This document shows positions 9,091-25,606 of a DNA stretch of 64,000 bases, piece by piece; the stretch's first letter is position 1; each line of letters opens with the position of its first letter. The DNA is taken from assembly GCF_001429285.1 (NCBI RefSeq), contig NZ_LMJJ01000023.1, positions 195,041 through 259,040 on the forward strand, in the 5' to 3' direction. Below the pieces are notes generated by a model, which worked only from the letters and a program-made list of their open reading frames with translations, was not told where the DNA came from and made no database searches. Origin of the DNA: Ensifer sp. Root278 (lineage in GTDB: Bacteria > Pseudomonadota > Alphaproteobacteria > Rhizobiales > Rhizobiaceae). The translations under genes and the position numbers were made by a program.

Positions 9091-9352
9091 AGCCTCACAG
9101 GGCGACGGTATCCAGTGCCGCCGCCCAAAAGCCGACCCCTTGAGCGTTCCCCGCAAGCGACAAGCCGCCGCTGGCGATTTTGGCCATCCGACGCCCCACC
9201 ACCGAATACGGTAAAGCCTGACGAGGCTGCATTGCCGTGCCATTGCGTGTCCCGCTAGAACCGGCACACGCCCGCGCACCCATGCGCCGCAACGTTGCTG
9301 CAATCCTCGTCGACCAGACGTGAGGCAACATCTATCGTATTCGGAGAATTCA

Positions 9353-10027
9353 ATGCGCCTGCTCCTTGTCGAGGACGAGCTGGAAATGGCGGCGGCGCTC
9401 AGCGCCGCGCTCGGTCGCTACGACATGATCCTGGATCATGCGCCAACGCTCGACCATGCATTGGCGGCGCTCGCCAATCACGTGCATGACGGCATCATCC
9501 TCGATCGCCAATTGCCCGATGGCGACGGGCTGTCACTGATCCCGCGCGTCCGTGCGCTGAAATCCGGAATTCCCGTGATCGTTCTGACCGCGCGTGGCGC
9601 GGTCGACGAGCGTGTCCGTGGCCTCGACATGGGCGCCGACGACTACCTCGCCAAGCCCTTTGCCGTGGAAGAACTGTTGGCGCGGATCCGCGCCCTCATG
9701 CGGCGTTCGCCGGATATCGCCCCCATGACGGCGCGCATCGGCAAACTCGTCTTCGATTTCGACGGCAGGCAGGCGCAGGTGAACGGCCAGTTGCTTGACC
9801 TGCCCCGTCGCGAACTGCTGGTACTGGAAACGCTGGCGCGGCGGCAGGGCCGCACGGTGCAGCGCTCGACCTTGGAGGAGTCTGTCTACGGCTACGATGA
9901 CGAGATCCAATCCAACTCGCTCGACGCGCATGTCTCGCGACTACGCCGGAAGCTTGCCGACACCGGCGCCGGCGTGGAGATCCACAGCATCCGCGGCGTT
10001 GGTTATCTGTTGAGGCCTTCGCCATGA
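9353..10027 (+). CDS. OmpR/QseB-family response regulator
   Basis: The 224-residue protein has a receiver domain (acidic pocket VEDE near the N-terminus, phospho-acceptor Asp51 in ILDRQLPDGDG, Lys in DDYLAKPF) and a C-terminal winged helix (RRELLVLETLARRQGRTV, then NSLDAHVSRLRRKL and GVGYLL). It is phosphorylated by the sensor kinase whose gene overlaps its stop by 4 bases. The ATG at 9353 follows GGAGAATTCA; longer in-frame starts lack a ribosome site. The 262 bases upstream, after the peptidase gene, hold no evident gene. Confidence 0.92.
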   Translation: MRLLLVEDELEMAAALSAALGRYDMILDHAPTLDHALAALANHVHDGIILDRQLPDGDGLSLIPRVRALKSGIPVIVLTARGAVDERVRGLDMGADDYLAKPFAVEELLARIRALMRRSPDIAPMTARIGKLVFDFDGRQAQVNGQLLDLPRRELLVLETLARRQGRTVQRSTLEESVYGYDDEIQSNSLDAHVSRLRRKLADTGAGVEIHSIRGVGYLLRPSP

Positions 10028-11361
10028 GCACGTCATCCGTCAACTCGTTGAAGAAGCGCCTGATCTGGCAGATCCTCACCTTTCAGGTGCTGCTGTTGAT
10101 GGCGGTCATCGCCGGCCTCATGGCATTGCTGACGCGCGCCGATCTTGGCGGAAAGTTCCTCGATGCCGACGCAGCTTCGGTCGCCGCCGGAGCGATCCGC
10201 TCGCAGCCCGCGGGTGGACTGACGCTGGTCGAGACACCGCAATTGCTCGCCATGCGGGCCGAGTCGCCGGATTTCTGGTTCGTCGCGAGAAACGAACGCG
10301 GCGACATGATCCGCAGCGGCCCCGTGCCGGACGCCTATCGCGGCATTGGCGAACATCTGGATCGGATCGCCTTTGGCGATATCCGAGACAGCGTCGAGCC
10401 CTACACGCTCTCGTCGATCGTGCGCTCGGTGACCACGGAAAGCGGAACCTACACGGTGCTCGCCGGCGGCGGCCGGTTGTGGAGCGCGTCCTTCGCGGTT
10501 TTCCTGCTGGCAAACCTGGTGCTGCTGCCGATCGTGCTCATCGTCGTGCTGATCCCGGCCCTTGCCATCCCGATCATCGTCAGGCGTGCCTTTGCCGGCC
10601 TCGCCGATATGGTCGATCAGGCCAAGAAGATCGACGTCGATCGCCGCGGCGCCCGCTTGTCCGATCATCGGGTTCCCGGCGAAGTGCGTCCGCTGGTCGA
10701 GGCATTCAATGGCGCGCTGCAGCGACTCGACGAGGGGTACGAACGGCGACAGCGCTTCATTCTGGATGCGGCGCATGAACTGAGGACTCCGGTCGCCATC
10801 CTGCAGACGCGGCTGGAAAGCATGGACGCCGGGCCGCTCAGAAACCACCTGTTGATCGATTCCAATCGCATCGCGGGGCTTGCGGAACAGTTGCTGGACC
10901 TTGAGCGGATCGATCGCGATGGCGCGGACTTTTCCACGCTCGACCTAGTGTCGCTGTGCCGTGACGTCGCCGCCGACCTCGCGCCGCTCGCGCTTTCGGC
11001 CGGCTGCGAACTCTCCTTCGCCTCGGACGTCGAGCGTGTCGTTGCGCGCGGCGATGCCGGCGCCATTGAGCGGGCGGTCACCAATCTGGTGCGCAATGCC
11101 ATCGAGCATGCCGGTGGTCTCATCACCATCCGCGTCGAACGCGGCGGCGTGATCGAGGTCACCGATGAAGGCCCCGGCATTCCCGAACGCGAGCGTGAAC
11201 GCATCTTCGAGCCGTTCCATCGCCTGCAGCCACGCGACCACGGCGCCGGCCTCGGCCTGCATCTGGTCAGCGAAATCGTCGGTCGGCATAAGGGCCACAT
11301 TTCCGTTGTCGATGAACCCGCCGGCGGCGCCTGCTTCCGCATCACCTTGCCCGCGGCATGA
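10024..11361 (+). CDS. Two-component sensor histidine kinase
   Basis: The 445-residue membrane kinase has a first span at about residues 14-36, a periplasmic domain of some 110 residues, a second span at about 155-185, a HAMP linker, a HisKA domain with phospho-acceptor His251 in DAAHELRTPVA, and an HATPase domain (N box NLVRNAIEHA, G1 DEGPGIP, G2 GAGLGLHL). It starts inside the regulator's stop (ATGA), a standard operon pair. The signal is unknown. The adjacent outer-membrane protein gene, preceded by tandem direct repeats, is a candidate target. Confidence 0.92.
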   Translation: MSTSSVNSLKKRLIWQILTFQVLLLMAVIAGLMALLTRADLGGKFLDADAASVAAGAIRSQPAGGLTLVETPQLLAMRAESPDFWFVARNERGDMIRSGPVPDAYRGIGEHLDRIAFGDIRDSVEPYTLSSIVRSVTTESGTYTVLAGGGRLWSASFAVFLLANLVLLPIVLIVVLIPALAIPIIVRRAFAGLADMVDQAKKIDVDRRGARLSDHRVPGEVRPLVEAFNGALQRLDEGYERRQRFILDAAHELRTPVAILQTRLESMDAGPLRNHLLIDSNRIAGLAEQLLDLERIDRDGADFSTLDLVSLCRDVAADLAPLALSAGCELSFASDVERVVARGDAGAIERAVTNLVRNAIEHAGGLITIRVERGGVIEVTDEGPGIPERERERIFEPFHRLQPRDHGAGLGLHLVSEIVGRHKGHISVVDEPAGGACFRITLPAA

Positions 11362-11571: not shown

Positions 11572-12198
11572 ATGCGGCAATCCAGCAAGTTTTCGATCTG
11601 GTCCAGTCTCACCCTGCTAACCTTCCTCGGCGTCCAGCAGTCCCAGGCGACCGACTTCTCCGTGCCCGATTATCAGGATCCGCCAGCATTCAGCTGGAGC
11701 GGCGCCTATGTCGGTGCGCATGGTGGCCTCGGCTTCAGCGGCAGCCCCAATCCCTTCGCCGATCGCAATGGCGTCGCGCTCGGCGTCCAGGCCGGCTACA
11801 ACATGCAGGCGGGCCCGGGCATCGTCGGTGCCGAGATCGAGGGCTCCTACCTCGGCGACACGGAGCACAAGGTCAATGGTGGCAAGCTCAAGGAAAAATG
11901 GCGCGGTGCGATCAAGGCGAAGGCCGGCCTCACCTTCGACCAGACGCTCGTCTACGGCACAGCCGGCTATGCGATGACCAACTACAAGAAAGGCGGCGAT
12001 GTTCGCAACGACGTCGGCTTCAAGGGCGGTTATCTCGTTGGCGCCGGCATCGAGCAAGCCTTCGCAGGCGGCCTGTCGGCCAAGCTTGAGTACAACTACA
12101 TCATGACGCCCGATGTCCGCACCAGCACCGTTTCAGGCTCCAGTGAAAAGGACATCAACAGCCACGTCATCAAGGCCGGTATCAACATGCGCTTCTGA
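11572..12198 (+). CDS. Small outer-membrane beta-barrel protein (Omp25/opacity-like)
   Basis: The 208-residue protein has a signal peptide ending about QSQA-T (residue 24) and then the rhizobial outer-membrane porin-like pattern: FSWSGAYVGAHGGLGF, alternating amphipathic strands such as GVALGVQAGYNMQAGPGIVGAEIEGSY, and a C-terminal aromatic, HVIKAGINMRF. Family members are 8-stranded barrels (Omp25/Omp31-like) in the outer membrane. The ATG follows GGAGCAATATC. The 210 bases between it and the kinase gene contain the ATTAATA repeats. Confidence 0.82.
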   Translation: MRQSSKFSIWSSLTLLTFLGVQQSQATDFSVPDYQDPPAFSWSGAYVGAHGGLGFSGSPNPFADRNGVALGVQAGYNMQAGPGIVGAEIEGSYLGDTEHKVNGGKLKEKWRGAIKAKAGLTFDQTLVYGTAGYAMTNYKKGGDVRNDVGFKGGYLVGAGIEQAFAGGLSAKLEYNYIMTPDVRTSTVSGSSEKDINSHVIKAGINMRF

Positions 12199-12304: not shown

Positions 12305-13834
12305 TCACTCCGCCGCTTCCCTCGCCAACGGCTCTGATGTCGCCAGCCGGCGCCAGATCGGCGCCATGGCGGCGGCGATCTCACCGTAGATCGCGAAGCG
12401 CCGGTCATAGTGTGCACCGAGCGCGGCATTCGGTCGGTAGTGGCGGTCGGTTTGCACCATCGCCGCAGCTCCGGCGGAAATGTCCGCAAAGAGACCGATG
12501 CCGGCACCCGCGGTGATCGCAGCACCAAGCGCGCCGGTCTCGCGCGAACGCGCGACCGTCACCGGCACATCAAGCACATCCGCAAAGATCTGCGGCCAGA
12601 TCAGGCTGCGCGATCCGCCGCCTGAGAGCACCGCCTCGTCGAAACCCGCGCCTGCAGCTCGCATCGTCGCGATGTGCTGCCGATGTCCGAAGGCGACGCC
12701 TTCGAGCACGGCACGGACCAGATGGCCCTTGGTGTGCCAGCCGGCGACACCGTAGAAACCCGCCCGCGCGTTGCCATCCTGCTGCGCTCCATAGAGAAAC
12801 GGGTGGTAGAGCGGATCGTTCGCCGCAGGCGCGACCTCGGCCGCCAATTGGCAGCACAGATCGAAGGGTGAGCGGCCGTCCTTGCCGTCGTGTGGAAACA
12901 GTTCCCGTACCAGCCATTCGAGATTGGCGGCAGACGTCGCGCTCGCCTCGATCGCCATGTAGCGGTTTCGATCGAAGGTCGAGAACATGAAGATCGGATT
13001 GCTGAGGTCCGGCTTTTCGATGATGACCTGGTTGATGCTCCAGGTACCGGCAATGATCGAGGCCGCTCCGGTCTTTGTCACGCCGGATCCTATCGCCGAG
13101 GCGACGACGTCGAAGAGGCCGCCGACAACAGGCGTACCGGCCGCCAGTCCCGTTTGCACGGCTGCCTCTTCACTCACCCTTCCAACGATCGCGTCGCTTT
13201 CGGCGAGATCGGGCAACAGATCCATGCAGTCGTGAAGGCCATAGGCCTTCATCAGCCCATCGTCATAACGTCGCCCGGCGACGTCGAGCAGCCCCGCTCC
13301 ACTCATGTCGGAGACGTCGCTGACGCGGGCACCGGTCAGGCGATTGACGACGAAGTCCTTGCAAAGAAACACCGTGCCGATCTTAGCGAAGAGGTCCGGG
13401 CGAAAGCGTTTCAGCCAGGCAAGCAGCGTCGGCGTCTGCGATGGCCAGGGCCGCTGCCCGGCGATCGGATAGGTGCGCTGGCCGACGCCTTCGGCTTGCC
13501 ATTCCTCCACGAGGCCGGCTGCGCGGGTATCGAGCGACTGGATGCCGATCAAAGGCGCGCCGCTACGATCGAGCGCATAGAGGCCGTTGCCATGCCCAGC
13601 GCAGCCGATCGCAGCGATCTCATCAGCACGGATACCGGCACGCTCGATACAGGCGCGGATCACCACCTTTGCGTGGCTCCAGAGCTCACCGAGCCCTCGC
13701 TCGACATGGCCGGGCGTCGGAACCTGGCTATGCCCTTCCTCAGCGGCCATCGCGATCTCGTTGCCCTCTCGGTCAAATAGCACCGCCTTGATCACGGTGT
13801 TCCCGGCGTCGATCCCGAGCAGATACTCTCCCAT
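12305..13834 (-). CDS. FGGY-family carbohydrate kinase, L-xylulokinase (LyxK)-like
   Basis: The 509-residue kinase starts with the phosphate-1 motif LGIDAGNTVIKAVLFD and carries GTPVVGGLFDVV, GTWSIN, a GFYGVAGWHTKGHLVRAVLEGV segment (split at about residues 355-376) and adenosine-site LSGGGSRS, in the order found in E. coli LyxK. FGGY enzymes phosphorylate a ketose or polyol with ATP in the cytoplasm. It is the last gene of the eight-gene operon, 126 bases after the aldolase, the only large gap and one containing two hairpins. The likely role is the first step after uptake; the sugar is not determined. L-xylulose, L-ribulose and erythritol kinases are alternatives. Confidence 0.82.
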   Translation of the reverse strand: MGEYLLGIDAGNTVIKAVLFDREGNEIAMAAEEGHSQVPTPGHVERGLGELWSHAKVVIRACIERAGIRADEIAAIGCAGHGNGLYALDRSGAPLIGIQSLDTRAAGLVEEWQAEGVGQRTYPIAGQRPWPSQTPTLLAWLKRFRPDLFAKIGTVFLCKDFVVNRLTGARVSDVSDMSGAGLLDVAGRRYDDGLMKAYGLHDCMDLLPDLAESDAIVGRVSEEAAVQTGLAAGTPVVGGLFDVVASAIGSGVTKTGAASIIAGTWSINQVIIEKPDLSNPIFMFSTFDRNRYMAIEASATSAANLEWLVRELFPHDGKDGRSPFDLCCQLAAEVAPAANDPLYHPFLYGAQQDGNARAGFYGVAGWHTKGHLVRAVLEGVAFGHRQHIATMRAAGAGFDEAVLSGGGSRSLIWPQIFADVLDVPVTVARSRETGALGAAITAGAGIGLFADISAGAAAMVQTDRHYRPNAALGAHYDRRFAIYGEIAAAMAPIWRRLATSEPLAREAAE

Positions 13835-13876
13835 GCGCGAACCCCTCCCAAGGTTCTAAATCCGTTCGACCGAGAC

Positions 13877-13947
13877 GTCGCCGCTGTCCTCCACGGCGAC
13901 GCGCTCCACCCTGTCACAAGAGGCGTCGCGCCCTGAGGCGCGATGCC
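13877..13947 (-). other. Two intra-operon hairpins between aldolase and kinase genes
   Basis: GTCGCCG (13877-13883) pairs with CGGCGAC (13894-13900). Next to it GGCGTCGCGCC (13922-13932) pairs with GGCGCGATGCC (13937-13947, one G-U) around a CTGA tetraloop. No T tract follows on the minus strand, so an mRNA processing or stability role is more likely than termination. Confidence 0.45.
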
Positions 13948-13960
13948 GTCCCAGCCAATC

Positions 13961-14803
13961 TCAGCCGCGCTGATAGAGCGCGTAAGCTTCTTCGCCGCCC
14001 GCATCCTCATGGATGATCGCCATCAGCCCGCGCACGACGGCGCTCGGATTGGCGTGCTGGTAGATGTTGCGGCCATAGACCATGCCCATTGCGCCCTGGC
14101 GCATCAAGGCCGCCGATTTGGCAAAGACGTTGCGCAGATCTTCTTTGCCGCCGCCGCGCACCAGGACCGGGCAGCGCGCCGCCTCGACGACCCTGTGGAA
14201 ATCTTCCGCGTTGGTGGTCGGGTCCGCCTTGACGATATCGGCTCCCATCTCGCGCGCAAGCCGGGTCAGGGTCACGATCTTCTCGGCATCGCCATCGACC
14301 ATGTAACCGCCCTGTTCGGTCACCGGCTGCATGACCAGGGGCTCGATCATCAGCGGCATGCCGTATTTGTCGCAATCGGCCCGCACCCGCGAGATATTGG
14401 CGACGCATTGGCGGAAGAGATCGGGCTCGTCCGGCAGCATGAACAGGTTGACGACGACGCAGGCGGCGTCCATCGCCAGCGCGCCGATCAGCGGCTCGGC
14501 CTCGTTCTGCAGCACCGCCCACATGTGCCGGTGGCGGATGCGGTTATAGGGGTTGCCCATGTCGAGACGCATGACGAGCGCCGGCTTGTCCTTGCCGGGC
14601 ACGTCCTGCAAGAGGTCAGCCTGGCCATAGTTCATCTGGATCGCGTCCGGTGCCGCCGCAACCAGAGCCTTCACCACGGCGGACATGTCTTCGAGACCAT
14701 TGAGGAAGGACGGTTCATTGCAGACGCCGTGATCGATCGCGACATCGAGGCAACGTCCACCACCGAAAAGACGGTTCATCCGGACCTTGCTGTTGTTTCG
14801 CAT
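13961..14803 (-). CDS. Class I aldolase of the DeoC/LsrF/FbaB type
   Basis: The 280-residue protein begins with MNRLFGGGRCLDVAIDHGV, the LsrF/archaeal-type fructose-bisphosphate aldolase opening with AIDHG. The Schiff-base lysine candidate is in GADIVKADPTT, followed by CPVLVRGGGK and GAMGMVYGRNIYQH, a phosphate-binding pair. Such enzymes cleave a phosphorylated ketose, or in LsrF transfer an acetyl group from a phosphorylated dione to CoA. It follows the GlpD-like gene with a 28-base overlap and has its own AGGAGTG ribosome site. The product is expected to include dihydroxyacetone phosphate; substrate unknown. Confidence 0.82.
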   Translation of the reverse strand: MRNNSKVRMNRLFGGGRCLDVAIDHGVCNEPSFLNGLEDMSAVVKALVAAAPDAIQMNYGQADLLQDVPGKDKPALVMRLDMGNPYNRIRHRHMWAVLQNEAEPLIGALAMDAACVVVNLFMLPDEPDLFRQCVANISRVRADCDKYGMPLMIEPLVMQPVTEQGGYMVDGDAEKIVTLTRLAREMGADIVKADPTTNAEDFHRVVEAARCPVLVRGGGKEDLRNVFAKSAALMRQGAMGMVYGRNIYQHANPSAVVRGLMAIIHEDAGGEEAYALYQRG

Positions 14804-16524
14804 AATGCACTCCTTTGTTCATTCCGTGCGGAAAGGGTTTCCTCGTCGACGCCATGGCGCTCGGCGAGGAGGGTGAGAAAGCGTTTGCGCTCGTGATCGG
14901 CGAGGGGCAACGACCAGTGTTTTTCGCTCGCGAGCAAGGCGAGTGCGGCGTCGGCCATGTCGAGCGAGAGTTCGCCAGATATCGCCAGCGTCGTGCGGCG
15001 CAGCAGGAGATCGTCGAGATGCTCGACGGCCTCGTTGCGGACCAGGAACTGCAGCTCCCGCGCGGAGTAATCCGGATATGGCAAGGCGTGATCGGCACCG
15101 CCAGCGATGAAATCGGCGATCTGCCTCGAGCCCGTTCCATAACGCGTAAACAGCGTGCGCATGCGCTCGCGCGAAAGTCCGGTGGATGCCGCGACGTCGT
15201 CGATCCATGTATCGCGATCGGACGGATACTGCCGCCCGCCGCCAATGGCGCGTTCGCCGGTACTGACACGGCGCGCCCGGCCCAGACGCTCCAATGTGAG
15301 ATCTGCCGCCATTTCGCCGAAGGAGCGGAAGGTCGTCCACTTGCCGCCGATCATGCACAGCACCGGCGGGCCATCGTCGACTGCTTCGACGAAGGTGCAG
15401 AAATGGTCGCGCGGGATGCGTCCGGTAAAACTGTCCTCGCTTGCCGGCAGCGGCCGCACGCCCGAGAACTGGAAGACCACCTCCTCCCGCCGGATCTTGA
15501 TATCAGGCAGAACCCAGGCGAGCGACTGCAGGATGTAGTCACGCTCGTCCGGTTCGCAGCGCACCGTTTCCGGGTCGTCGACGCGGATATCGGTCGAGCC
15601 CACCAGCACCTTGCCGAGATAGGGAAAGAGGATGCAGATGCGGCCATCCTCGTTCTCATAATAGATCATATGGCCGTCGAGCGCTTCCATCAGCGCCGGG
15701 TTGTCGATGATGAGATGCGATCCCTTGGTGCCGCCCATCAGCGGCGCCGGCTTTGACGTCGAGGGAAACAGCGCTCCGTTGGCGATATCGATCCAGCCGC
15801 CAGTGGCGTTGATGATAAGCGTGGGCTCGATCGTAACGACCGCGCCGCTGACACCGTCCTTCAGCTCGTATCGCCCGGGCGCCGCAAGGACCAGTTCGGC
15901 ATAGTTGAGCGCATGGGCATGTGGGCCGGCAGCAAGTCCGTCCTTCAGGAGCTCGAGACCGAGACGCTCCGGCTGGCTGACCCAGGCGTCGTAGTAGGTG
16001 GCAGAACTCTTGATGTCGGGATTGAGCGCCGGCCAACGGGCAAGCGTCGCGCGCCGGCCTCGAAAGGCGTGCTTCGGCATCAGGGCCCGCTTGCGCGTCA
16101 GGAAATCATAGATGCCGAGGCCCAGCTTGACCGCAACGGCGCCGCGACGGCTCGGACGGCGGGTCAGCCCCATAAACCGCACGGCCCCGTTGGCGAGACC
16201 GGAAAAAATATCGAAGATCGGCACCGTCGTTGGAAGCGGCGCCACGTAATGCGGCGCGTTCTTGAGCAACCGGTCACGCTCGACGAGCGATTCCCGCACC
16301 AGGCTGAACTCGCCGTTTTCGAGATAGCGAAGGCCGCCATGCACCATGCGCGACAGCGCAGCACTGGCGCCCGAACAGTAGTCGTGCTTCTCGACGAGCA
16401 GCACGTTTATCCCTTGCAGCGCCAGCTCGCGAAAGACGCTGAGGCCGTTGATGCCGCCGCCGAGGACGCACACGTCCACCTTCGGGCTCTCTACGAGCCC
16501 GTTGAAAATCTCTTCACGGTTCAT
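14776..16524 (-). CDS. GlpD-like FAD-dependent (polyol/glycerol) phosphate dehydrogenase
   Basis: The 582-residue flavoprotein has the Rossmann FAD motif VCVLGGGINGLSVFRELAL (residues about 19-37) and the GlpD signatures CSGASAALSRMVHGGLRYLE (split around residues 47-66), then FPYLGKVLVGSTD and GGKWTTFRS. GlpD enzymes oxidise glycerol-3-phosphate to DHAP and pass electrons to quinone at the membrane; EryB is a close relative acting on erythritol-4-phosphate. It is somewhat longer than typical GlpD (about 500-540) and sits between aldo/keto reductase and aldolase genes, which argues for a polyol-phosphate substrate specific to this operon. Confidence 0.82.
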   Translation of the reverse strand: MNREEIFNGLVESPKVDVCVLGGGINGLSVFRELALQGINVLLVEKHDYCSGASAALSRMVHGGLRYLENGEFSLVRESLVERDRLLKNAPHYVAPLPTTVPIFDIFSGLANGAVRFMGLTRRPSRRGAVAVKLGLGIYDFLTRKRALMPKHAFRGRRATLARWPALNPDIKSSATYYDAWVSQPERLGLELLKDGLAAGPHAHALNYAELVLAAPGRYELKDGVSGAVVTIEPTLIINATGGWIDIANGALFPSTSKPAPLMGGTKGSHLIIDNPALMEALDGHMIYYENEDGRICILFPYLGKVLVGSTDIRVDDPETVRCEPDERDYILQSLAWVLPDIKIRREEVVFQFSGVRPLPASEDSFTGRIPRDHFCTFVEAVDDGPPVLCMIGGKWTTFRSFGEMAADLTLERLGRARRVSTGERAIGGGRQYPSDRDTWIDDVAASTGLSRERMRTLFTRYGTGSRQIADFIAGGADHALPYPDYSARELQFLVRNEAVEHLDDLLLRRTTLAISGELSLDMADAALALLASEKHWSLPLADHERKRFLTLLAERHGVDEETLSARNEQRSALCETTARSG

Positions 16525-16536
16525 GATGCCAGCCCG

Positions 16537-17532
16537 TTACCTGTCCATGTTGACGAGCTTCGCCGCGATCGCCGCGTCGATTCCCTTAAGGTCTTCTTCG
16601 TCGAGCCGGATCGTACCCGCTCGGGCATTGTCGAGCGCCTGGCCCGGATTGCGTGCACCGCAGAGCGCGAAGGTCACGCCCTCCTGTGCCAACGTCCAGG
16701 CAATCACGATCTGGGCAATCGTCGCGCCATGTTTCTCGGCGATCGACCGGATCGACTTGGCAAAGGCTGCGACCTTCTCGCGATTGCCGACGGAGAAACG
16801 TGGATTATCGCGCCGCTGGTCGTCGCCCGAGAAGACGCGCTCCGGCCCGATGCCGCCCGAAAGAAGACCGAGCGCCAGCGAGGAATAGCTGAGCGTCGCG
16901 ACGCCGTTGCGCCTCGTCAGTGGCAAAAGATCGGCTTCGATCTCGCGATCGATCATGCTGAAGCGTTCCTGGATCGCATCAAGCCCGCCGATTGCGATGT
17001 ATTGTTCCAGTTCGCCGCGGCCGACATTGCTGGCGCCGATCGCCCTGATCTTGCCCGCCTGGCGCAGCTCTTCGAGGGCGGCCATGGTTTCCTCAATCGG
17101 CGTCGTCGGGTCCTGCCAGTGGGTGATGTAGAGGTCGATATAGTCGGTGCCGAGCCGCTTCAGGCTCTGCTCGACCTCATGGCGGATGGCGTCGCGGCCG
17201 AGGTAGCGATGCACCGGCTTGCCGTCCTGGTCGAAGAAGTGCCGCCCCTTGTCCGTATGCCAGACGAGACCGCATTTGGTGGCGATGATGGCCTTGTCGC
17301 GCCGGCCGGCAAGCGCCTTGCCGACGATTTCTTCCGAACGCCCGAGGCCGTAGGCGGGCGCCGTGTCGATCAGCGTCACGCCGGCGTCGAGCGAGGCCTG
17401 GATCGCGGCGATCGATTCCCGCTCGTCGGTGCCGCCCCACATCCAACCGCCGATCGCCCAGGTGCCGAGCCCGACGGCCGAAGCCTTCACGCCCGATCGG
17501 CCGCTCTCGCGCATCAACTGTTCCCCACTCAT
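16537..17532 (-). CDS. Aldo/keto reductase
   Basis: The 331-residue protein has the complete aldo/keto reductase catalytic tetrad: Asp in DTAPAYG, Tyr in the same motif, Lys in IIATKCGL, and His in YITHWQD. The NADPH-binding C-terminal region reads FALCGARNPGQALDNA. It resembles IolS/YhdN-type enzymes that reduce sugar-derived aldehydes or ketones. Its ATG overlaps the SorC gene stop by 4 bases. In this operon it may oxidise the imported polyol or reduce an aldehyde released by the aldolase; direction cannot be told from sequence. Confidence 0.85.
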   Translation of the reverse strand: MSGEQLMRESGRSGVKASAVGLGTWAIGGWMWGGTDERESIAAIQASLDAGVTLIDTAPAYGLGRSEEIVGKALAGRRDKAIIATKCGLVWHTDKGRHFFDQDGKPVHRYLGRDAIRHEVEQSLKRLGTDYIDLYITHWQDPTTPIEETMAALEELRQAGKIRAIGASNVGRGELEQYIAIGGLDAIQERFSMIDREIEADLLPLTRRNGVATLSYSSLALGLLSGGIGPERVFSGDDQRRDNPRFSVGNREKVAAFAKSIRSIAEKHGATIAQIVIAWTLAQEGVTFALCGARNPGQALDNARAGTIRLDEEDLKGIDAAIAAKLVNMDR

Positions 17533-18539
17533 GCCAGAAGTCCCTTTTCGCTTGCCATGGCGAGCACACGCTCACCGGTCGCCTCGTCCGTCACCAGTGT
17601 ATCGAGATGCCGCCCGCGCATGACGCTGAGGATCGGCCCGGCCTTGTTCGGGCCGCTTGCCACTCCGATCTTCGTCGGGATCGAGGCAAACTCCTCAAGC
17701 GTCAGCGACACCAGCGAACGGTTGAGGCTGTAGTCGCAGACGCGGCCCTGTTCATCGAGCAGATGGGCGAGCAGTTCGCAGCTCGCGCCGGAGCGCTCGA
17801 TCGCCGCCCGGTCGGTGCTCGATGACGGATGCAGGTCGTAGTAGCTCGAATCGTCTGACAGGATCGAACCGATGCCAACCACCGCGACCTTCGCCTCTCG
17901 CGCCCTGCCGAAAACGTCGGCCACCGCGCGCATATTGATCAGCATCGCCCGCTCGGCAGCGCTGTCGGCAAAAAGCGGCGCATGGATCTGAAAGGACCGG
18001 CCGCCGAGCCGGTCGGCCATCAGCGTCGAGACGTGGTTGACGTCGGTATAGTGCTTGCCCTGGACGCAGCCGGTCGCCGGGATGACCTCGACATCGAAGC
18101 GGCGCGGTGCCTGCAGCCCGGCAACGACGGCGCTGACGCCCTTGCCGCCGGTGATGCAGATGGTGTCACCATCGCCGATCTCTTCGAGCAGCAGACGCGC
18201 CGCCGCCTCGCCGACCGCCTGAAGGGCGGTCTGCTGGTTGTCGGAGACAGTGGGCACGACGATCGCACGGCGGATGCCGCCGATCGCCAGCAGCTGCTCT
18301 TCCATGTCGACCAGCGGCTCGATCGGCGATTTGATCTTGATCTCGACCAGGCCGAGCTGGCGGCCGCGCTTGATCAGCCGGTTGACGGTCGGCTGCGAAA
18401 TGCCGAGCCGGTCGGCGATCTGCGACTGGGTCAGCCCTTCGAGGAAATGCAGGACGAGCGCCTGGTGCATCTGCCTTGCGACGACAAGTTCTTCGCGCGC
18501 ATTCGAAACCGGGGACAGCGTGGATTTGGCAATCGGCAT
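17529..18539 (-). CDS. SorC-family sugar-responsive transcriptional regulator
   Basis: The 336-residue protein has an N-terminal helix-turn-helix (LVLHFLEGLTQSQIADRLGISQPTVNRLIKRGRQLG, residues about 24-58) and a SorC-type phosphosugar-binding domain (ICITGGKGVSAVV, VIPATGCVQGKHYTDVN, KVAVVGIGSI, CDYSLNRSLVSLTLEEF, ASGPNKAGPILSVMRGRHLDTLVTD across residues 150-325). SorC regulators such as LsrR and DeoR-like SorC respond to phosphorylated sugars. The ATG at 18537-18539 is used. Lying inside the operon, it likely controls it through the palindromes upstream of the binding-protein gene. Confidence 0.88.
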   Translation of the reverse strand: MPIAKSTLSPVSNAREELVVARQMHQALVLHFLEGLTQSQIADRLGISQPTVNRLIKRGRQLGLVEIKIKSPIEPLVDMEEQLLAIGGIRRAIVVPTVSDNQQTALQAVGEAAARLLLEEIGDGDTICITGGKGVSAVVAGLQAPRRFDVEVIPATGCVQGKHYTDVNHVSTLMADRLGGRSFQIHAPLFADSAAERAMLINMRAVADVFGRAREAKVAVVGIGSILSDDSSYYDLHPSSSTDRAAIERSGASCELLAHLLDEQGRVCDYSLNRSLVSLTLEEFASIPTKIGVASGPNKAGPILSVMRGRHLDTLVTDEATGERVLAMASEKGLLA

Positions 18540-18541
18540 GT

Positions 18542-19531
18542 TCAGACGGCCTTCCGCTTGTGCAGCAAGTGGTCGATGGAAACGGCAGCTAAGAGAATGC
18601 AGCCTTTGATCATGTCCTGCCAATAGACGGACACGTCGAGCAGGATCAACGAACTGGTGACGACCGAAAGCAGCGCGATGCCGAGAATGGCGCCGAGGAT
18701 CGTGCCCGAGCCGCCGTTGAGCGAGGCGCCGCCGATGACGGCCGCCGCAATGATGTTGAGCTCCATGCCGACGCCGAAGGTCGGCGTCGCGGCTCCGAAG
18801 CGCGACATGTAGACGACGCCGGCGACACCGGCGAGCGTCGAGCAGAGCACCGTCACCCAGAACTTCACCTGCTTGGTCTTGATGCCAGAGTAGAGCGCCG
18901 CCTTCTCGTTGCTACCGGTATAGAACACCTTGCGGAAGGCGGTTGCCCGACGGAGCAGGAAATCGAAGAGGATGACGACGGCGACGAAGATCAGGATGAC
19001 ATAGGGGACACCATGGAAGGTGCCCTGCCCCACCGCCTTGAACGAGGCCGGCAGCGTGAAGAGCGACAGCGGCGTGCCCTTGGTGATGACGAGGCAAAGG
19101 CCGCGCACGATGACCATCGCTGCCAGCGATGTGATGAAGTGGTTGAGCCCGACGACGGTGACGAAGAAGCCCATGATCATGCCGATCATGCTGCTGGCGA
19201 GGATGCCGACCAGCGAGGCCGTCCAGGGATCGACGCCGGCAAGAAACAGCGAACCGGCAAGCACCATGGCGAAGCAGACCACCGAGCCGACGGCAAGGTC
19301 GATGCCGCCGACGATCAAGAGGATCGTCATGCCGACGACGACGATGCCTTCGACCGAGAAGCTCATCAGCATGGCGCGCATGTTGCCGAAGGTGAGAAAA
19401 TGCGGCGATGCGAAGCTCATGACGAGCCCAAGCGCCAGGATGATCGCGATCAGCCCGGCTTCGCGCATCGTGCCAATGCGCTTCCAGGCCGGCACCGCCC
19501 TCTCGGTTGCAACCATCGTATCAACTGCCAT
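18542..19531 (-). CDS. CUT2 sugar ABC importer, permease
   Basis: The 329-residue membrane protein resembles RbsC: multiple spans beginning with AGLIAIILALGLVMSFASPHF, the motif GGIDLAVGSVV, and the C-terminal GGASLNGGSGTILGAILGI. The start at 19531 is preferred because GAGGAGG lies 5 bases upstream; an earlier ATG at 19570 would overlap the ATPase gene by 11 bases. It forms the inner-membrane channel for the sugar captured by the binding protein at 21164-22192. Confidence 0.88.
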   Translation of the reverse strand: MAVDTMVATERAVPAWKRIGTMREAGLIAIILALGLVMSFASPHFLTFGNMRAMLMSFSVEGIVVVGMTILLIVGGIDLAVGSVVCFAMVLAGSLFLAGVDPWTASLVGILASSMIGMIMGFFVTVVGLNHFITSLAAMVIVRGLCLVITKGTPLSLFTLPASFKAVGQGTFHGVPYVILIFVAVVILFDFLLRRATAFRKVFYTGSNEKAALYSGIKTKQVKFWVTVLCSTLAGVAGVVYMSRFGAATPTFGVGMELNIIAAAVIGGASLNGGSGTILGAILGIALLSVVTSSLILLDVSVYWQDMIKGCILLAAVSIDHLLHKRKAV

Positions 19532-19559
19532 TTCCGCCTCCTCGGCTCTTTCCGTTCTT

Positions 19560-21104
19560 TCAGGCGACATTTGCTGCCCTGCCTGCCGCGATCCGATCCG
19601 TCGGCGTCACGCCGGACGCCAGGCGGATCACCGCCTCCTCGCTCATTTCAGTGTCATCGAGTGCGCCAGCAATCGTGCCCTCGCGGATGACCAGCACCCG
19701 GTCACAGAGCCCGAGCAGCTCCGGCAGTTCCGACGAGATCACGACGATGCCGATGCCGGTTTCCGCAAGCTCGCGCAGCAACCGGTGGATCTCGGATTTC
19801 GCGCCGACGTCGATGCCCCGCGTCGGCTCGTCCATCAGGATCACCTGGGGGCGGACGGCCAGCTGCTTGGCGATCGCCACCTTCTGCTGGTTACCGCCCG
19901 AAAGCGACGAGACCGGCATGTCGATGCCGCCCATGCGCACGCCAAGGCGGCGGACGAACTCACGCGCCAGATCGGCCTCGGCCCTGGAATTCAACAATCC
20001 GAGCGGGCCAGTCAGCGTTTTCAGATCGAGGACCGAGATATTCTGGGCGATCGACAGGTCGATGAAGACGCCTGAGCCCTTGCGATCCTCGGAGAGGTAG
20101 ACGATGCCGGCGTTGACCGCGTCGCGGTAATTGGCGATGCGCTGCGGCTTTCCGCGCAGAGCGACCTCGCCCGTCGATTTCGCCCGCAGACCACAGATCG
20201 CTTCGGCGATTTCGGTGCGCCCCGAACCGATCAGGCCGCCGATGCCGAGGATTTCGCCGCGCTTCAGATCGAAGGAAACACTGTCGATGCGGTCGCCGTC
20301 GCTCAAGTTGCGGACCGAAAGGATGGGTTCGCCCGAGCGCGCTTCCGGCGCCTGTTTCGGCGGATAGAGCTGGCTGATCTCGCGGCCGACCATGCGGCGC
20401 ACGACGTCATCAGGCGTGACGTCCGCAATCTTCTCGGTGACCACATGGCGACCATCACGAAACACGGTGACCCGATCGCAGAGCGAAAAGATCTCCGCCA
20501 TGCGGTGGCTGATATAGATGATCGAAATGCCCGCGGCCTTGAGATCGCGGACGATGCCGAACAGCGCCTGGGCTTCCGCTTCCGTCAGCGCCGCCGTCGG
20601 TTCGTCGAGGATCAGCACGCGGCAGTCGAGCGTCAGCGCCTTGGCGATCTCGACGAGTTGCTGGCTGGAAATGCCGAGGTCGGCGACCTTCCGGCGGACG
20701 TCGATCGGTGCCAGCCGGTTCATCACACCTTGCGCCTCGCGCTCAAGCGCGCCGTAATTCATCAGCGGCGAGCGGCGGCGATTGGTGGCGGCCATGAACA
20801 TGTTTTCTGCCACCGTCGCGTCCGGGCAGAGCGCGATCTCCTGGTGGACGAGGCCGATCCCGAGCGTCTGGGCGATCGCCGGAGAGCCTATTTTGACAGG
20901 TGCTCCGTCAACGAGGATCTCGCCCTCGTTCGGCTGCAGCACACCGGCAATGATGTTCATCAGCGTGGATTTGCCGGCGCCGTTTTCGCCGCAGAGCGCG
21001 TGGATTTCTCCCCGCTCCAGCTGGAAATTCACCTCGGTCAACGCCTTCACCGCACCGAAATGCTTGGTGACGCGCCGGACCTCCAGAACCGGTTGTGCTG
21101 TCAT
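19560..21104 (-). CDS. CUT2 sugar ABC importer, two-domain ATP-binding protein
   Basis: The 514-residue RbsA/MglA-type ATPase has two nucleotide-binding domains. The first is complete (Walker [10 protein letters not shown], Walker [11 protein letters not shown]). The second has the degenerate Walker A of this family (GLIGSGRTE), signature LSGGNQQK and Walker [12 protein letters not shown]. The ATG at 21104 follows GGAGGACGGC. It powers uptake with the permease and binding protein in the same operon. Confidence 0.9.
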
Positions 21105-21163
21105 GCCGTCCTCCACCCGTATCATTGGCTGCCCGGAGCGGACCGGGCAGCCATTTTTCGCCC

Positions 21164-22192
21164 TTACTCGTCGATACCCTTGGTACCACGACGCTTCAGG
21201 TACTTGTCCCAGTAGAAGTCGTCGGCATTCTCGGCTGTGACGATCGAGAGACCATTGTCGACGAAGGGGATGCTCATCGGGTTGAAGCCGGCGCGCTTGG
21301 CGTCGTTCATCGGGTCGATCAGTTCCGGGTGCTTGGCCATCCACAGCAGCATGAAGCCCATATAGCCCTGCATGCCCTGGTTCGGGTTGATGGAGCCGAA
21401 GACTTCGCCGGCCTTGATCATATCGAGGATGTTGGCGTTGACGTCGGCGCACATGACGAGCACCTTGCCGCCGCTTTCCTTGCTGGCCTGGGCCGCACCG
21501 ATGGCAGAGTTCGCTTCCGGCATGAAGACTGCGCCGAGGTTCGGATTGGCCTGGATGATGCTCATCAGGCCCTGATAGGCCTTGTTCGGATCCTGGTTCG
21601 AGGCGGCGCGGCCGACGAGCTTCATGTCAGGCCACTTCTCGGCCATGCGATTGACGAAGGCGGTGATGCGCTTGTCGTGGTTGTCCTGGCCGGGGTTTTC
21701 GAGAACCGCGTACTCGCCCTTGCCGCCCATCTTCTCGGCGATCGCGTCGGCGGCGTAGGTGCCTTCGCGGCTGTTGTCCGAGGTGATGAAGGAAACACGC
21801 TTCGACAGCGGCGAGTCCGCGGCGAAGGTGACGACGGCCGTGCCCTGGTCGATCGCCCGGTTGATCGGCTCGATGAACGGATCGGAGTTCATCGGGTGCA
21901 CCAGTATCCCGGCCGGATTCTGGGCGAGCGCCTGGTCGAAGGTGGCGATCTGCTTGTTGACGTCATACTCCGGCGTGCCGGTATATTCGGTCTCGCAGCC
22001 GAACTGCTGGCCGGCCTGCTTGAACATCTCATAGACCGGGAACCAGTATTCGACGCCGGATACCATGACGTTCATGACGTATTTTTCGCCGGGCTGGCAG
22101 CGAAACGGGTTTGTCGTTTCGGCGCTTGCCGAACCGGCCCAGAATGACGTTGCAATGACCGCCAGAGCGGTCGTGCTGAAAAATTTGCGCAC
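21164..22192 (-). CDS. CUT2 sugar ABC importer, periplasmic binding protein
   Basis: The 342-residue protein has a signal peptide (RKFF, hydrophobic stretch, cleavage after ASA near residue 21) and a periplasmic-binding-protein type I fold ([41 protein letters not shown] within residues 30-125, then [12 protein letters not shown] and [15 protein letters not shown]). It is the first gene of the eight-gene operon. The GTG start at 22190-22192 follows AGGAGG. It does not resemble the known S. meliloti AI-2 receptor LsrB, so an AI-2 role is not supported. Ligand presumably a pentose, tetrose or sugar alcohol. Confidence 0.87.
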
Positions 22193-22301
22193 GCGTTCCT
22201 CCTCGGGGCCGAAGCCCCTCCCAAAAACCGATGGACCGCCTGTTTGCGGCCGCTGAATATGTGAGTTCGCCGGAACTCCTCCTCGACTTCCGACGATTGC
22301 G

Positions 22302-22330
22302 ATTAAAGCCGCGGACTCACCGTCTGTCAA
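22302..22330 (-). promoter_or_regulatory. Sigma-70-type promoter of the eight-gene sugar operon
   Basis: On the minus strand TTGACA (22330-22325) is followed after exactly 17 bases by TTTAAT (22307-22302), giving a leader of about 100 bases before the GTG at 22192. It is the best promoter match in the divergent region. Confidence 0.6.
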
Positions 22331-22334
22331 TATA

Positions 22335-22359
22335 ATTCATGGCATGAATAATAATTCAT
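22335..22359. promoter_or_regulatory. Overlapping ATTCAT/ATGAAT inverted repeats, candidate operator
   Basis: ATTCAT (22335-22340), ATGAAT (22344-22349) and ATTCAT (22354-22359) form two inverted repeats sharing the central arm, immediately upstream of the -35 box. The array lies between the sugar operon and the divergent LacI-type gene. It lacks the central CG usual for LacI-family sites, so the SorC regulator is at least as likely to bind it. Confidence 0.5.
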
Positions 22360-22428: not shown

Positions 22429-23415
22429 ATGGCCACCCTGCAACAGATCGCCTTTCATGCCGGCTGCTCGCTGGCGACCGTCTCGCGCGTGCTCAACGGC
22501 GAAGGCCCCGTCAGCGACGAGATGGTACGGCGCGTGCGTCGGGCCGCCGCCGAGCTCGGCTATCGGCCGGCGACGGCCGCGGGGCGCACCGCCAGCCGCA
22601 GCCAACCGGTCGTCGGCGTGCTGGTGCCGAGCGTCACCAACCCGGTCTTCGCCGCCTCGCTTGCCGGCATCCAGCACCGCATGCAGGTAGCAAGCCATGG
22701 CGTTCTGATCGCGCAATCGAATTATGATCCAGCACTCGAGGCGCGCGCCGTGCGCTCGCTGCTCGAGCAGCGCCCGACCGGGCTGATCCTGACGCTCTGC
22801 GACGCCCGCACCAGCGAGGCGCTTTCGGCGGCGCTGCCGCCGACCGTGCTTCTCAACAACCGGCCCGTCGCCCGCTTCGCCGCCGCCGTCACGGTCGACA
22901 ATTACCGCGCAGGCTACGAATTGACCCGGCATATCCTTGCGCATGGGCATCATCGCATTGTCGTGGTCACCGGCCATTTCCACTCCTCCGACCGGGCGCG
23001 CCTGCGTTACGACGGATATTCCGCCGCCATGCAGGAGGCGGGCGTCCAGCCGATGGAGGCTGTCGAGATCCCCTTCGTCGACGGTTACGAGAACCTCGAC
23101 CTCGCGGCGGTCCTCGCGCATCACCGCCCGACGGCGATCATCGCCTCCAACGACCTTCTCGCCCTCGGCGTAATCGCGGCGCTCCGACGCGAAGGCCTTT
23201 CCGTACCGGATGATGTCTCGGTCGCCGGCTTCGACGGCATCGCCCTCGGGCGATTGATGAGCCCAACACTCACCACGATAGCGATGCCCGACGGAGACAT
23301 GGGGCTTGCGGCGGCGGCGCTATTGCTCGACATGGCCGAGAACGCCTCCGGCTGCCGCCATCTCAACCTCGACTGCCGCCTCTACGCGGGCGGGACCGTT
23401 CGCCACCTCGTCTGA
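22429..23415 (+). CDS. LacI-family transcriptional regulator
   Basis: The 328-residue protein has an N-terminal LacI helix-turn-helix (LQQIAFHAGCSLATVSRVLNGEG, residues 3-25), a hinge AAAELGYRP, and a sugar-binding core with PTAIIASNDLLALGVIAALR, SVAGFDGIALG and a C-terminal dimer region. It diverges from the CUT2 operon and converges on the UgpB-like gene. It may add a second layer of control on the sugar operon besides SorC. The ATG follows AGAGGGCAGCG. Confidence 0.87.
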   Translation: MATLQQIAFHAGCSLATVSRVLNGEGPVSDEMVRRVRRAAAELGYRPATAAGRTASRSQPVVGVLVPSVTNPVFAASLAGIQHRMQVASHGVLIAQSNYDPALEARAVRSLLEQRPTGLILTLCDARTSEALSAALPPTVLLNNRPVARFAAAVTVDNYRAGYELTRHILAHGHHRIVVVTGHFHSSDRARLRYDGYSAAMQEAGVQPMEAVEIPFVDGYENLDLAAVLAHHRPTAIIASNDLLALGVIAALRREGLSVPDDVSVAGFDGIALGRLMSPTLTTIAMPDGDMGLAAAALLLDMAENASGCRHLNLDCRLYAGGTVRHLV

Positions 23416-23479: not shown

Positions 23480-24745
23480 TCAGCTACGCGGCAGCAGGCT
23501 TTCGACTTCGGCTGCAGCCTCGTCCAGCGCTTCCTTCGGCGTCGTCGACTGCTCAACGATGCGCGACAGGTTCTCGACGATCGTCTGCGTGACCTTCACG
23601 CCGTTGCTGCCGGGGAAGGCATACCAGGGGCGCATCAGCGGCATCTGCTCGAGACCGGCGCGGAACAACGGGTTTTCCTTGTAGAAGTTGGCGAGATACT
23701 CCGGCGACTTGGCGGCGAGCTCGTTGTTCGGCACGTAGCCGGTACCGGGAACGACGACCGAGGCGCCATAGGGGCCGGCGGCGAACTTCGCGAATTTCCA
23801 GGCCGCTTCCTGCTTTTCGGCATCGCGCGTCAGGATGACGACGGCATTGCCGCCGGTCGGCAGCTTGCCGTTTACCGGATCGATCAGCGGAATGTGCGCG
23901 GTGCGCAGGTCGAACTTGCCGCCAACATTCTTGATCGTGTTGCGCAGCGCCCCGGTCGTCTGGAACGCAAAGCCGGTCTTGCCGGCAACGAAGGCCTGCT
24001 CGCCAGCCTGCTTGGTCAGAACCGGCAGCCCACCTTCCTTGACCATGCGGTCGAGCACGTCGACGGCCTTCTGGCCCTCCGGCCCGTTGAAGGCAACCTT
24101 GCTCTCGTCTGCACTCAGCATGTCGCCGCCGGCGCCGAAGAGCAGTGCGGAGAACATCCAGTCGTCGCCCTGCCAGCGGAAGTCGATGCCCTCGTTGCCG
24201 TCGCCGAGCGCCTTGATCTTTGCCCCGAGCGCGATGACCTCGTCCCAGGTCTTCGGCGGGCTGTCCGGGTCACCGCCGGCTTTGCGCACCAGATCGGCAT
24301 TGTAGTACATGATCGGGTTGGAGGTGGCGAAGGCAAGGCCCACCTGCTTGCCGCCCACCTGGGCGAGCTTCAGGATGTTTTCTGAAAAGCCCTGCTCGGC
24401 CATATTGCCGTCCTTGGCAATGAACGGGCCGAGATCGACGGGGATGTCGCGCTCGTTGACCATGCGCAGGCGGTTGAGGCCGATGAAGGTCAGATCGGGC
24501 ATCTCGGCCGTGCCTGCCTGACGCATGATCGTCTGGATGCCTTCCTCATAGGTGGCCGACGGGTTGGCGAAGGTGATCTTGATGTCGGGGTTTTCTTCCA
24601 TGAACTTCTTCGAGATCGTGTCCATCACGTCCTTGAAGAACCCGGGCATCGGATAGTGGACCGTAAGCTGGGTCTCGGCGTAGGCAGGGGCTGCGAGCAT
24701 CAGCGATGCGGCAGCCGCGGTGAAAAGCTGTCTCAGATGTTTCAT
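23480..24745 (-). CDS. UgpB-like ABC importer periplasmic binding protein (family 1)
   Basis: The 421-residue protein has a signal peptide (KHLRQLF, alanine-rich core, cleavage after AYA near residue 23), then the UgpB-like start TQLTVHYPMPGFFKDVMDTI, GLAFATSNPIMYYNADLV in the middle and WKFAKFAAGPYGASV. Family 1 proteins bind oligosaccharides, sugar alcohols or glycerol-3-phosphate derivatives. It is the last gene of an operon headed by a metallophosphoesterase with phosphate-box-like repeats upstream, so a phosphodiester ligand is plausible but unproven. Confidence 0.87.
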   Translation of the reverse strand: MKHLRQLFTAAAASLMLAAPAYAETQLTVHYPMPGFFKDVMDTISKKFMEENPDIKITFANPSATYEEGIQTIMRQAGTAEMPDLTFIGLNRLRMVNERDIPVDLGPFIAKDGNMAEQGFSENILKLAQVGGKQVGLAFATSNPIMYYNADLVRKAGGDPDSPPKTWDEVIALGAKIKALGDGNEGIDFRWQGDDWMFSALLFGAGGDMLSADESKVAFNGPEGQKAVDVLDRMVKEGGLPVLTKQAGEQAFVAGKTGFAFQTTGALRNTIKNVGGKFDLRTAHIPLIDPVNGKLPTGGNAVVILTRDAEKQEAAWKFAKFAAGPYGASVVVPGTGYVPNNELAAKSPEYLANFYKENPLFRAGLEQMPLMRPWYAFPGSNGVKVTQTIVENLSRIVEQSTTPKEALDEAAAEVESLLPRS

Positions 24746-24769
24746 GGGGTGCGCTCCAGGTTGGACCGT

Positions 24770-25606
24770 TCAGCCTTTGAGACCGGTCATGGTGATGCCC
24801 TCGACGAAGCGCTTCTGCGCCAGCAGAAATGCAGAAACGAGGGGAAGGGTAATGATGAGGGTCGCCGCCATCAGCGCGCCGTAGTCGTCGCCGGCTTCAG
24901 CCGCGCGGAAAAAGAGAAGGCCGAGCGGCGGAGTCGCGTAGTCCTGGTTGGTGACGACGATCAGCGGCCAGAAGAGGTCGTTCCAGTGGGCGACCACCGA
25001 GAAGATCGCAAAGGCGGTGATCGCTGGCCAGGCGTTCGGCACGATGACCCGTGCGACGATGCCCGCCTCCGACATGCCGTCGAGCCTTGCTGCGTGGATC
25101 AGGTCGTCGGGCATGGCGCGGAAGAACTGCAGGAACAGGAAGATCGCAAAGACCGAGATCGAGAACGGCGCCACAAGTGCTGCGTAGCTGTTCAGCACCG
25201 ACAGCTTGTCGAAAGCGACATAGATCGGCAGCGCCGTCGCATGGATCGGTACCAGCAGTCCGAGCATGACCAGCACCATCATGGCGCGGGCCGCGCGAAA
25301 CTTCAGCTTCGCCATGGCATAGGCGCACGGAATGGCGACGACGATCTGGATGACGAAGATCAGTGCGCAGACGACAACGCCGTTGAAAAGCAGGGTCGTC
25401 ATCGAGACGCGCGACAGAGCCTTGGAGAAGTTCTCGATGTAGGACCACTGCTCCGGGATCAGCGACAGCGACGAGGAGAAGATCTCGCTTTGCGCCTTGC
25501 CCGCGGTCGAGACCATGAAGATGTAGGGCGCGAGGAAGAGCAGCGCGCCAAGCGACAGGACCGCGAGGCGGACGATACGGGCGACGGAAAGAGCGTTCGT
25601 GATCAT
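24770..25606 (-). CDS. CUT1 ABC importer permease (UgpE/MalG-like)
   Basis: The 278-residue permease has six spans, beginning with IVRLAVLSLGALLFLAPYIFMVS, and the EAA loop AARLDGMSEAGIVARVIVPNAWPAI (residues about 180-205), which couples to the ATPase. It starts at the ATG at 25604-25606, overlapping the UgpA-like stop by 4 bases. The upstream in-frame extension is not used because it lies within the preceding permease gene. Confidence 0.88.
   Translation of the reverse strand: MITNALSVARIVRLAVLSLGALLFLAPYIFMVSTAGKAQSEIFSSSLSLIPEQWSYIENFSKALSRVSMTTLLFNGVVVCALIFVIQIVVAIPCAYAMAKLKFRAARAMMVLVMLGLLVPIHATALPIYVAFDKLSVLNSYAALVAPFSISVFAIFLFLQFFRAMPDDLIHAARLDGMSEAGIVARVIVPNAWPAITAFAIFSVVAHWNDLFWPLIVVTNQDYATPPLGLLFFRAAEAGDDYGALMAATLIITLPLVSAFLLAQKRFVEGITMTGLKG

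Follow-up and report, generated by a model that had tools for sequence, protein, structure and literature searches.

A conserved rhizobial operon with a possible kinase-first, flavin-dependent route for a small polyol

Introduction

Which compound is consumed by an operon that encodes an importer, a regulator and four enzymes, and by what route? Eight minus-strand genes (12305-22192) in a 64,000-nucleotide stretch of the Ensifer sp. Root278 genome (contig NZ_LMJJ01000023.1, positions 195,041 to 259,040; hereafter the window) raise this question. They encode a CUT2 ATP-binding cassette (ABC) importer with its solute-binding protein (SBP), a SorC-type regulator, an aldo/keto reductase (AKR), a GlpD-like flavoenzyme, a class I aldolase and an FGGY kinase. 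An initial annotation of the sequence had proposed phosphorylation, oxidation and cleavage of a polyol or ketose, followed by AKR action. We find that the operon is real, well conserved and of a familiar kind. The specific route stands as the best fit, with its enzymes travelling as a module, while we infer the substrate class, the step order, the aldehyde, the electron acceptor and the repression.

Results

A candidate catabolic route

The operon may be an inducible, self-contained catabolic unit for a small polyol, or for a sugar turned into one, a reading on which we are evenly divided. The importer would take up the polyol and the kinase would phosphorylate a terminal hydroxyl. The GlpD-like enzyme would then oxidise the carbon beside the phosphate ester, passing electrons to the quinone pool, and the resulting ketose-1-phosphate would be cleaved by the aldolase, through a lysine Schiff base, to dihydroxyacetone phosphate (DHAP) and a short aldehyde, which the AKR would reduce. 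In many relatives a GMC oxidoreductase would act on the same or a related alcohol or aldehyde, and SorC bound at a promoter palindrome would repress the operon until its ligand is present. Tentatively, and with confidence short of even, we propose that this kinase-first, flavin-dependent route is undescribed, that its GlpD-like enzymes are distinct from GlpD and EryB, and that it forms one SorC-controlled module in many Rhizobiales, on a Rhodobacterales plasmid and on a Photobacterium plasmid, probably serving a polyol that is missing from standard carbon-source plates (judged by the contents of Biolog plates).

The encoded proteins

The presence and strand of all eight genes were verified and their domains assigned by Pfam and NCBIfam (Table 1). 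Neighbouring genes overlap by 11 bp (ATPase/permease), 4 bp (SorC/AKR) and 28 bp (GlpD/aldolase), or are separated by 2 bp (permease/SorC), 12 bp (AKR/GlpD), 59 bp (SBP/ATPase) and, at the longest gap, 126 bp (aldolase/kinase). The genes are one operon, and both this part of the initial annotation and its assignment of the importer, regulator and four enzymes hold. Among the NCBIfam families shown for the operon proteins (the top 25 of 194 in the case of the ATPase), no family of a characterised sugar-pathway enzyme attained its curated cut-off.

The aldolase combines a PF01791 domain (DeoC/LacD class I family, 206.5 bits) with a Schiff-base lysine. This residue, Lys192, aligns with the LsrF lysine, a position occupied by alanine in LsrF entry 4p2v as opposed to 3gkf, and it is invariant in 30 of 30 aligned aldolases, in which the GG and GRN motifs are also kept. 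With the LsrF/MJ0400 catalytic lysine retained, the label LsrF-like given at first proves apt. Foldseek searches with the predicted fold (mean pLDDT 88.5) returned M. jannaschii MJ0400 with DHAP or fructose-1,6-bisphosphate as best matches, followed by LsrF and an archaeal fructose-bisphosphate aldolase. The protein does not qualify as an LsrF thiolase, scoring 105.6 bits for PRK08227 against a cut-off of 297 and sharing 28% identity with LsrF.

The kinase scores 188.6 bits for PF00370 and 97.6 bits for PF02782, both above the gathering score. It is 38-39% identical to kinases paired with a GlpD at other loci, 33% to E. coli LyxK, 28-30% to EryA and 29% to LsrK and XylB. LyxK is the closest of the four E. 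coli kinases compared, in keeping with the original LyxK-like description; the deep kinase tree is uncertain owing to long branches.

The GlpD-like enzyme falls short of GlpD membership (251.6 bits for the NCBIfam model against a cut-off of 360) and is 43-45% identical to the GlpD of the kinase-GlpD pairs that adjoin ery loci, 30-31% to EryB and 29% to E. coli GlpD. The split of GlpD and EryB from the 31 other rows had a support of 100 in a quick, midpoint-drawn tree, and it places EryB on the opposite side from the operon enzyme. Residues R54, Y55, H233, R317, R332 and K354 are identical in seven of seven aligned operon sequences; we take these to be the residues with which E. coli GlpD binds phosphate and substrate. 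On these six residues the phosphate-ester site is retained, as expected of the polyol-phosphate oxidase named in the initial annotation. We predict that the enzyme is a polyol-1-phosphate dehydrogenase or, put conservatively, that it oxidises beside a phosphate ester to give a ketose-1-phosphate. At the level of sequence, the conserved residues support the proposed chemistry.

By Pfam, the transporter consists of a PF13407 SBP, a two-domain ATPase and a PF02653 permease, the composition of a CUT2 sugar importer. The SBP (mean pLDDT of the predicted structure, 83.4) has as its nearest solved structure the arabinose-binding protein AraP (6sw4, 31% identity), a likeness that would suggest a small sugar as ligand without saying which one. 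The regulator carries PF04198 (187 bits) and a helix-turn-helix region. For the AKR, the nearest NCBIfam model is YdjG (methylglyoxal reductase), a likeness only at 281.4 bits against a cut-off of 550, and the nearest solved chains are 1pz1 and 3n2t; it is predicted to reduce the aldehyde product. In 81 of 111 related loci the kinase gene has a further neighbour downstream, a ninth gene for a GMC oxidoreductase, which is missing from the window operon and its nearest relatives. Two GMC paralogues (64-65% identity) lie elsewhere in the genome of the window (G000:C42:312087-313664 and G000:C20:39538-41178).

The enzyme set is the conserved unit

Of the 121 loci compared, 111 have an aldolase that is 70% or more identical, and the other 10, with aldolases at 43-53%, belong to a sister clade; the sample is non-random (80 are the best of 533 matches) and contains some places twice (e.g. 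L133/L152 and L038/L150). The genome-neighbourhood comparison suggested in the initial annotation found a GlpD-like gene with the aldolase in all 111 loci, joined by the kinase, AKR and SorC genes in 110 each and by the three importer genes in 104 to 105. At the thresholds used, GlpD-like, kinase, AKR, SorC and GMC genes were found in none of the 10 sister-clade loci, where paralogues at 24-27% occur. Six loci (L120-L123, L132 and L147) have a two-permease importer instead and retain SorC, AKR, GlpD, aldolase, kinase and GMC. Locus L135, from another class, has the AKR, aldolase, importer, GlpD-like gene and a divergent FGGY kinase (30%), with a gene of GntR-like start (by reading) in the place of SorC; it is the sole locus of the 111 without SorC. 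The importer-swapped loci and L135 therefore identify the enzyme set as the conserved unit.

Gene order is kept across alphaproteobacteria and on one Photobacterium plasmid, where the eight-gene order is identical (L032); a Rhodobacterales plasmid (L174) has this order with GMC added. The same operon is found in Sinorhizobium meliloti 1021 and Rhizobium johnstonii 3841 (pRL12), and among named strains the near relatives by aldolase (97-98%) are of the Ensifer adhaerens type. A tblastn search of plasmids matched 257 records, 250 of them with at least 80% query coverage, led by Rhizobium (106) and Sinorhizobium (74). Among genome samples that include the window's own genome, 23 of 61 relatives matched at E 0.001, and 10 of 398 phylum genomes and 37 of 397 order genomes at E 1e-50.

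Recurrent neighbour genes (thiamine, MmsA-like, zinc alcohol dehydrogenase) yielded no clue to the substrate. Thiamine synthesis genes adjoin the operon in two groups of loci (L030, L100, L112, L117 and L118), MmsA-like genes lie by L126 and L032, with weaker ones by three further loci, and a zinc-type alcohol dehydrogenase gene (by reading) sits between kinase and GMC in five of the six two-permease loci (L120, L122, L123, L132 and L147).

The control region

SorC probably reads the palindrome upstream of the SBP gene (Table 1). With three duplicates and a truncated locus set aside, 78 of 101 loci have a TGAA-W6-TTCA sequence at most 320 bp upstream of SBP. The other 2,059,759 bases of those loci contain none, and 26 copies of the looser TGAA-N6-TTCA. 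Fourteen of the 23 loci without it, including Photobacterium, differ by one mismatch from TGAAATATATTTCA; L135, which lacks SorC, differs by six. The half-site and promoter layout is the same in aligned relatives. Because the palindrome occurs once in the window's genome, SorC looks like a local regulator, and a wider SorC regulon was dropped as a pointer to the fate of the aldehyde. Two additional matches each are present in the genomes of 3841 and S. meliloti 4H41.

The leader could be a small-RNA target. It is conserved at the same place in L029, L059, L064, L066 and L148; the stems of its inverted repeat with GAGGAGGA in the loop vary on both sides between loci (by eye), and the TTCG-loop repeat directly precedes the ribosome site. 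An alignment of 60 leaders gave an unfavourable overall covariation term (+21.9), and Rfam returned two sub-threshold matches, none at the leader.

Table 1. Genes and control elements of the operon in window coordinates
Feature	Position	Strand	Basis or detail
FGGY carbohydrate kinase, LyxK-like	12305..13834	-	PF00370, PF02782
Class I (Schiff-base) aldolase, DeoC/LacD family, LsrF/MJ0400 group	13961..14803	-	PF01791
GlpD-like flavin adenine dinucleotide (FAD) enzyme	14776..16524	-	Pfam, NCBIfam
Aldo/keto reductase (AKR)	16537..17532	-	Pfam, NCBIfam
SorC/DeoR-type sugar-binding transcriptional regulator	17529..18539	-	PF04198
CUT2 ABC permease	18542..19570	-	PF02653
CUT2 ABC ATPase, two ABC domains	19560..21104	-	Pfam, NCBIfam
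SBP, periplasmic solute-binding protein of CUT2 importer	21164..22192	-	PF13407; GTG start
5' leader with two inverted repeats	22205..22295	-	22295-22268 (GAGGAGGA in loop); 22218-22205 (GGGGC-TTCG-GCCCC)
Second half-site running into promoter-like pair	22302..22339	-	TTGACA 22330-22325, 17-bp spacer, TTTAAT 22307-22302
Palindrome TGAATTATTATTCA, predicted SorC operator	22345..22358		Sole TGAA-W6-TTCA in the 7.1-Mb assembly

Past the kinase end of the operon lies a convergent outer-membrane-type gene (11572-12198), itself preceded by a response regulator and sensor kinase pair (9320-11361, plus strand, by reading). Past the SBP end, a divergent LacI-type regulator gene (22429-23415, plus strand) is followed by what reads as a CUT1-type ABC sugar importer operon (23480-27676, minus strand).

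The copy in S. meliloti

In S. meliloti 1021 the operon lies at about 515-527 kb of pSymB and probably corresponds to SMb20496-SMb20504, a numbering obtained by inference because the 1021 record carried no annotation. The copy of strain ml28 stands between genes for a large hypothetical protein and for a phosphotransferase. We infer that these flanks are SMb20495, a large tetratricopeptide repeat (TPR) protein (PMC5498481), and SMb20505, tfxG (PMC4053727). Nine genes, from GMC to SBP, fit the SMb20495-SMb20505 interval, and SMb20504 is named a putative periplasmic sugar-binding protein. In ml28 (L031, between 9843 and 11413) the kinase is unannotated and matches over 295 residues only, perhaps a broken copy; the Rm1021 kinase (L116) matches over 503 residues.

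On TY, phbC phaR had an SMb20504 level 3.81 log2 units below that of phbC, with imputed values possible (PMC12542648). The pSymB deletion strain B163 lost growth on D-psicose, dulcitol and glucosamine, and the psicose defect was credited to SMb20484-20488 (PMC4961836). SMb20496 is eight numbers beyond SMb20488, and the B163 deletion may therefore include the operon. The open-licence papers searched contained no description of the operon's function.

Discussion

The same enzymes could act in another order. If the AKR came first, turning an imported aldose into a polyol on which the kinase, the GlpD-like enzyme and the aldolase then act, its presence in 110 of 111 loci would fit, as would the arabinose-binding homologue of the SBP. 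We consider this unlikely: the nearest AKR matches are a methylglyoxal reductase model and GSP69, and locus L131 lacks AKR and GMC yet keeps the kinase, GlpD-like gene, aldolase, SorC and importer. Rather improbable is a pathway that starts from a ketose. The kinase would then yield a ketose-1-phosphate in one step for cleavage by the aldolase, and the AKR would turn glyceraldehyde into glycerol; a separate glycerol kinase would supply the glycerol-3-phosphate that the GlpD-like enzyme oxidises. While the LyxK likeness of the kinase, the conserved GlpD site and the psicose defect of B163 (PMC4961836), whose deletion may include the operon, speak for this scheme, the GlpD-like enzyme is separated from both GlpD and EryB in the tree and the window's genome has two other GlpD-type genes. 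In addition, kinase-GlpD pairs occur without an aldolase, which suggests that kinase and GlpD-like enzyme act in sequence. The two separate GlpD-type genes also led us to reject an ordinary glycerol pathway.

A tetritol pathway, in which threitol or erythritol would give a tetrulose-1-phosphate that is split to DHAP and formaldehyde, is very improbable. Related kinase-GlpD pairs do adjoin eryABCD- and eryEFG-like genes in R. johnstonii 3841 and Brucella tritici, but no formaldehyde-handling gene was recognised in the operon and EryA and EryB are only 28-31% identical. The erythritol operon itself was rejected, as the initial annotation had it, on the distance of EryA and EryB, the tree split and the absence of eryC, tpiB and rpiB from the operon. 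It is extremely improbable that the operon processes a signal resembling autoinducer-2 (AI-2) with LsrR-, LsrK- and LsrF-type proteins and a CUT2 importer. SorC, kinase and aldolase match the LsrR, LsrK and LsrF models weakly, but every operon protein stays under the NCBIfam Lsr cut-offs, lsrG is absent, there is a single permease where lsr has two, the aldolase is distant from LsrF, and the lsr pathway has no role for a GlpD or an AKR. The AI-2 pathway was rejected on these cut-offs and the missing lsrG, again in agreement with the initial annotation.

Several observations weigh against the polyol route that we prefer, in which phosphorylation, oxidation and cleavage follow one another. The related kinase-GlpD pairs examined lack a neighbouring class I aldolase, and their GlpDs are placed by the quick tree among the operon GlpDs rather than outside them; for both reasons a kinase-GlpD pair does not imply cleavage. 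The pairs also have lysine in place of Arg54. A seventh residue assigned to the GlpD site, T375, is glycine in the E. coli row; that assignment is wrong, and the residue is not usable. LyxK, the closest E. coli kinase, by name acts on a ketose, and the AKR could be the first step instead. GMC is lacking in 30 of 111 loci, a few of which are truncated where a contig ends, and the route does not account for its role. As for regulation, L096 has SorC and no palindrome, the palindrome is present in just two of the six importer-swapped loci, and genome G493, the source of L123, has SorC and zero palindromes genome-wide. Lastly, pentitols are not among the pSymB deletion phenotypes in the table considered from PMC4961836, which argues against common pentitols as substrate unless they are handled redundantly.

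The operon set is common to many related plant-associated bacteria, and its presence in S. meliloti 1021 and R. johnstonii 3841 means that well-studied rhizobia can be used to test directly a catabolic capacity that is still unassigned in them. The ligand of the SBP would name a compound on which root bacteria may live. The analysis further singles out GlpD-like enzymes that are distinct from both GlpD and EryB and, in the loci examined, have an FGGY kinase as neighbour; for the operon enzymes, automatic names such as glycerol-3-phosphate dehydrogenase and fructose-bisphosphate aldolase may mislead.

Comparison with known systems

The closest relatives of both kinase and GlpD-like enzyme found outside the operon are the kinase-GlpD pairs, which stand with a DeoR gene beside ery loci and on other plasmids and which have neither a class I aldolase nor an AKR nearby. 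By the erythritol loci of R. johnstonii 3841 and Brucella tritici, the pairs occupy L197 5337-8655 and L198 12976-16258, with a DeoR-type gene; the portion of PMC3599248 considered gives no function for them. The ery loci themselves (eryABCD and eryEFG), recognised in these two strains by gene order and likeness, share with the operon a CUT2 importer, an FGGY kinase, a GlpD-like enzyme and a SorC regulator, but have isomerase genes where the operon has its aldolase, and no AKR.

The AI-2 lsr operon likewise shares a CUT2 importer, a SorC-family regulator, an FGGY kinase and an aldolase of the same superfamily, and differs in having LsrG, two permeases and an LsrF that is named a thiolase. In the E. 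coli ydj cluster (YdjG, YdjH, YdjI and YdjJ) a kinase, a sugar-1-phosphate aldolase, a YdjG-type AKR and a dehydrogenase are adjacent, while no GlpD and no ABC importer are listed there; the ydj kinase and aldolase belong to other enzyme classes than those of the operon. That YdjG, the nearest model of the operon AKR, has a kinase and a sugar-1-phosphate aldolase as neighbours in E. coli speaks for the preferred route.

Operons of the sister aldolases, including that of Thioclava p4, have an aldolase that is 43-55% identical and, in several cases, CUT2 genes, but no kinase-GlpD-AKR set. In the annotated Thioclava p4 locus a sugar isomerase, another carbohydrate kinase and a Gfo/Idh protein lie by the aldolase, and the open reading frames of the other sister loci look similar by reading. 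This pairing of the aldolase with an isomerase and a kinase is as expected for the cleavage of a ketose phosphate.

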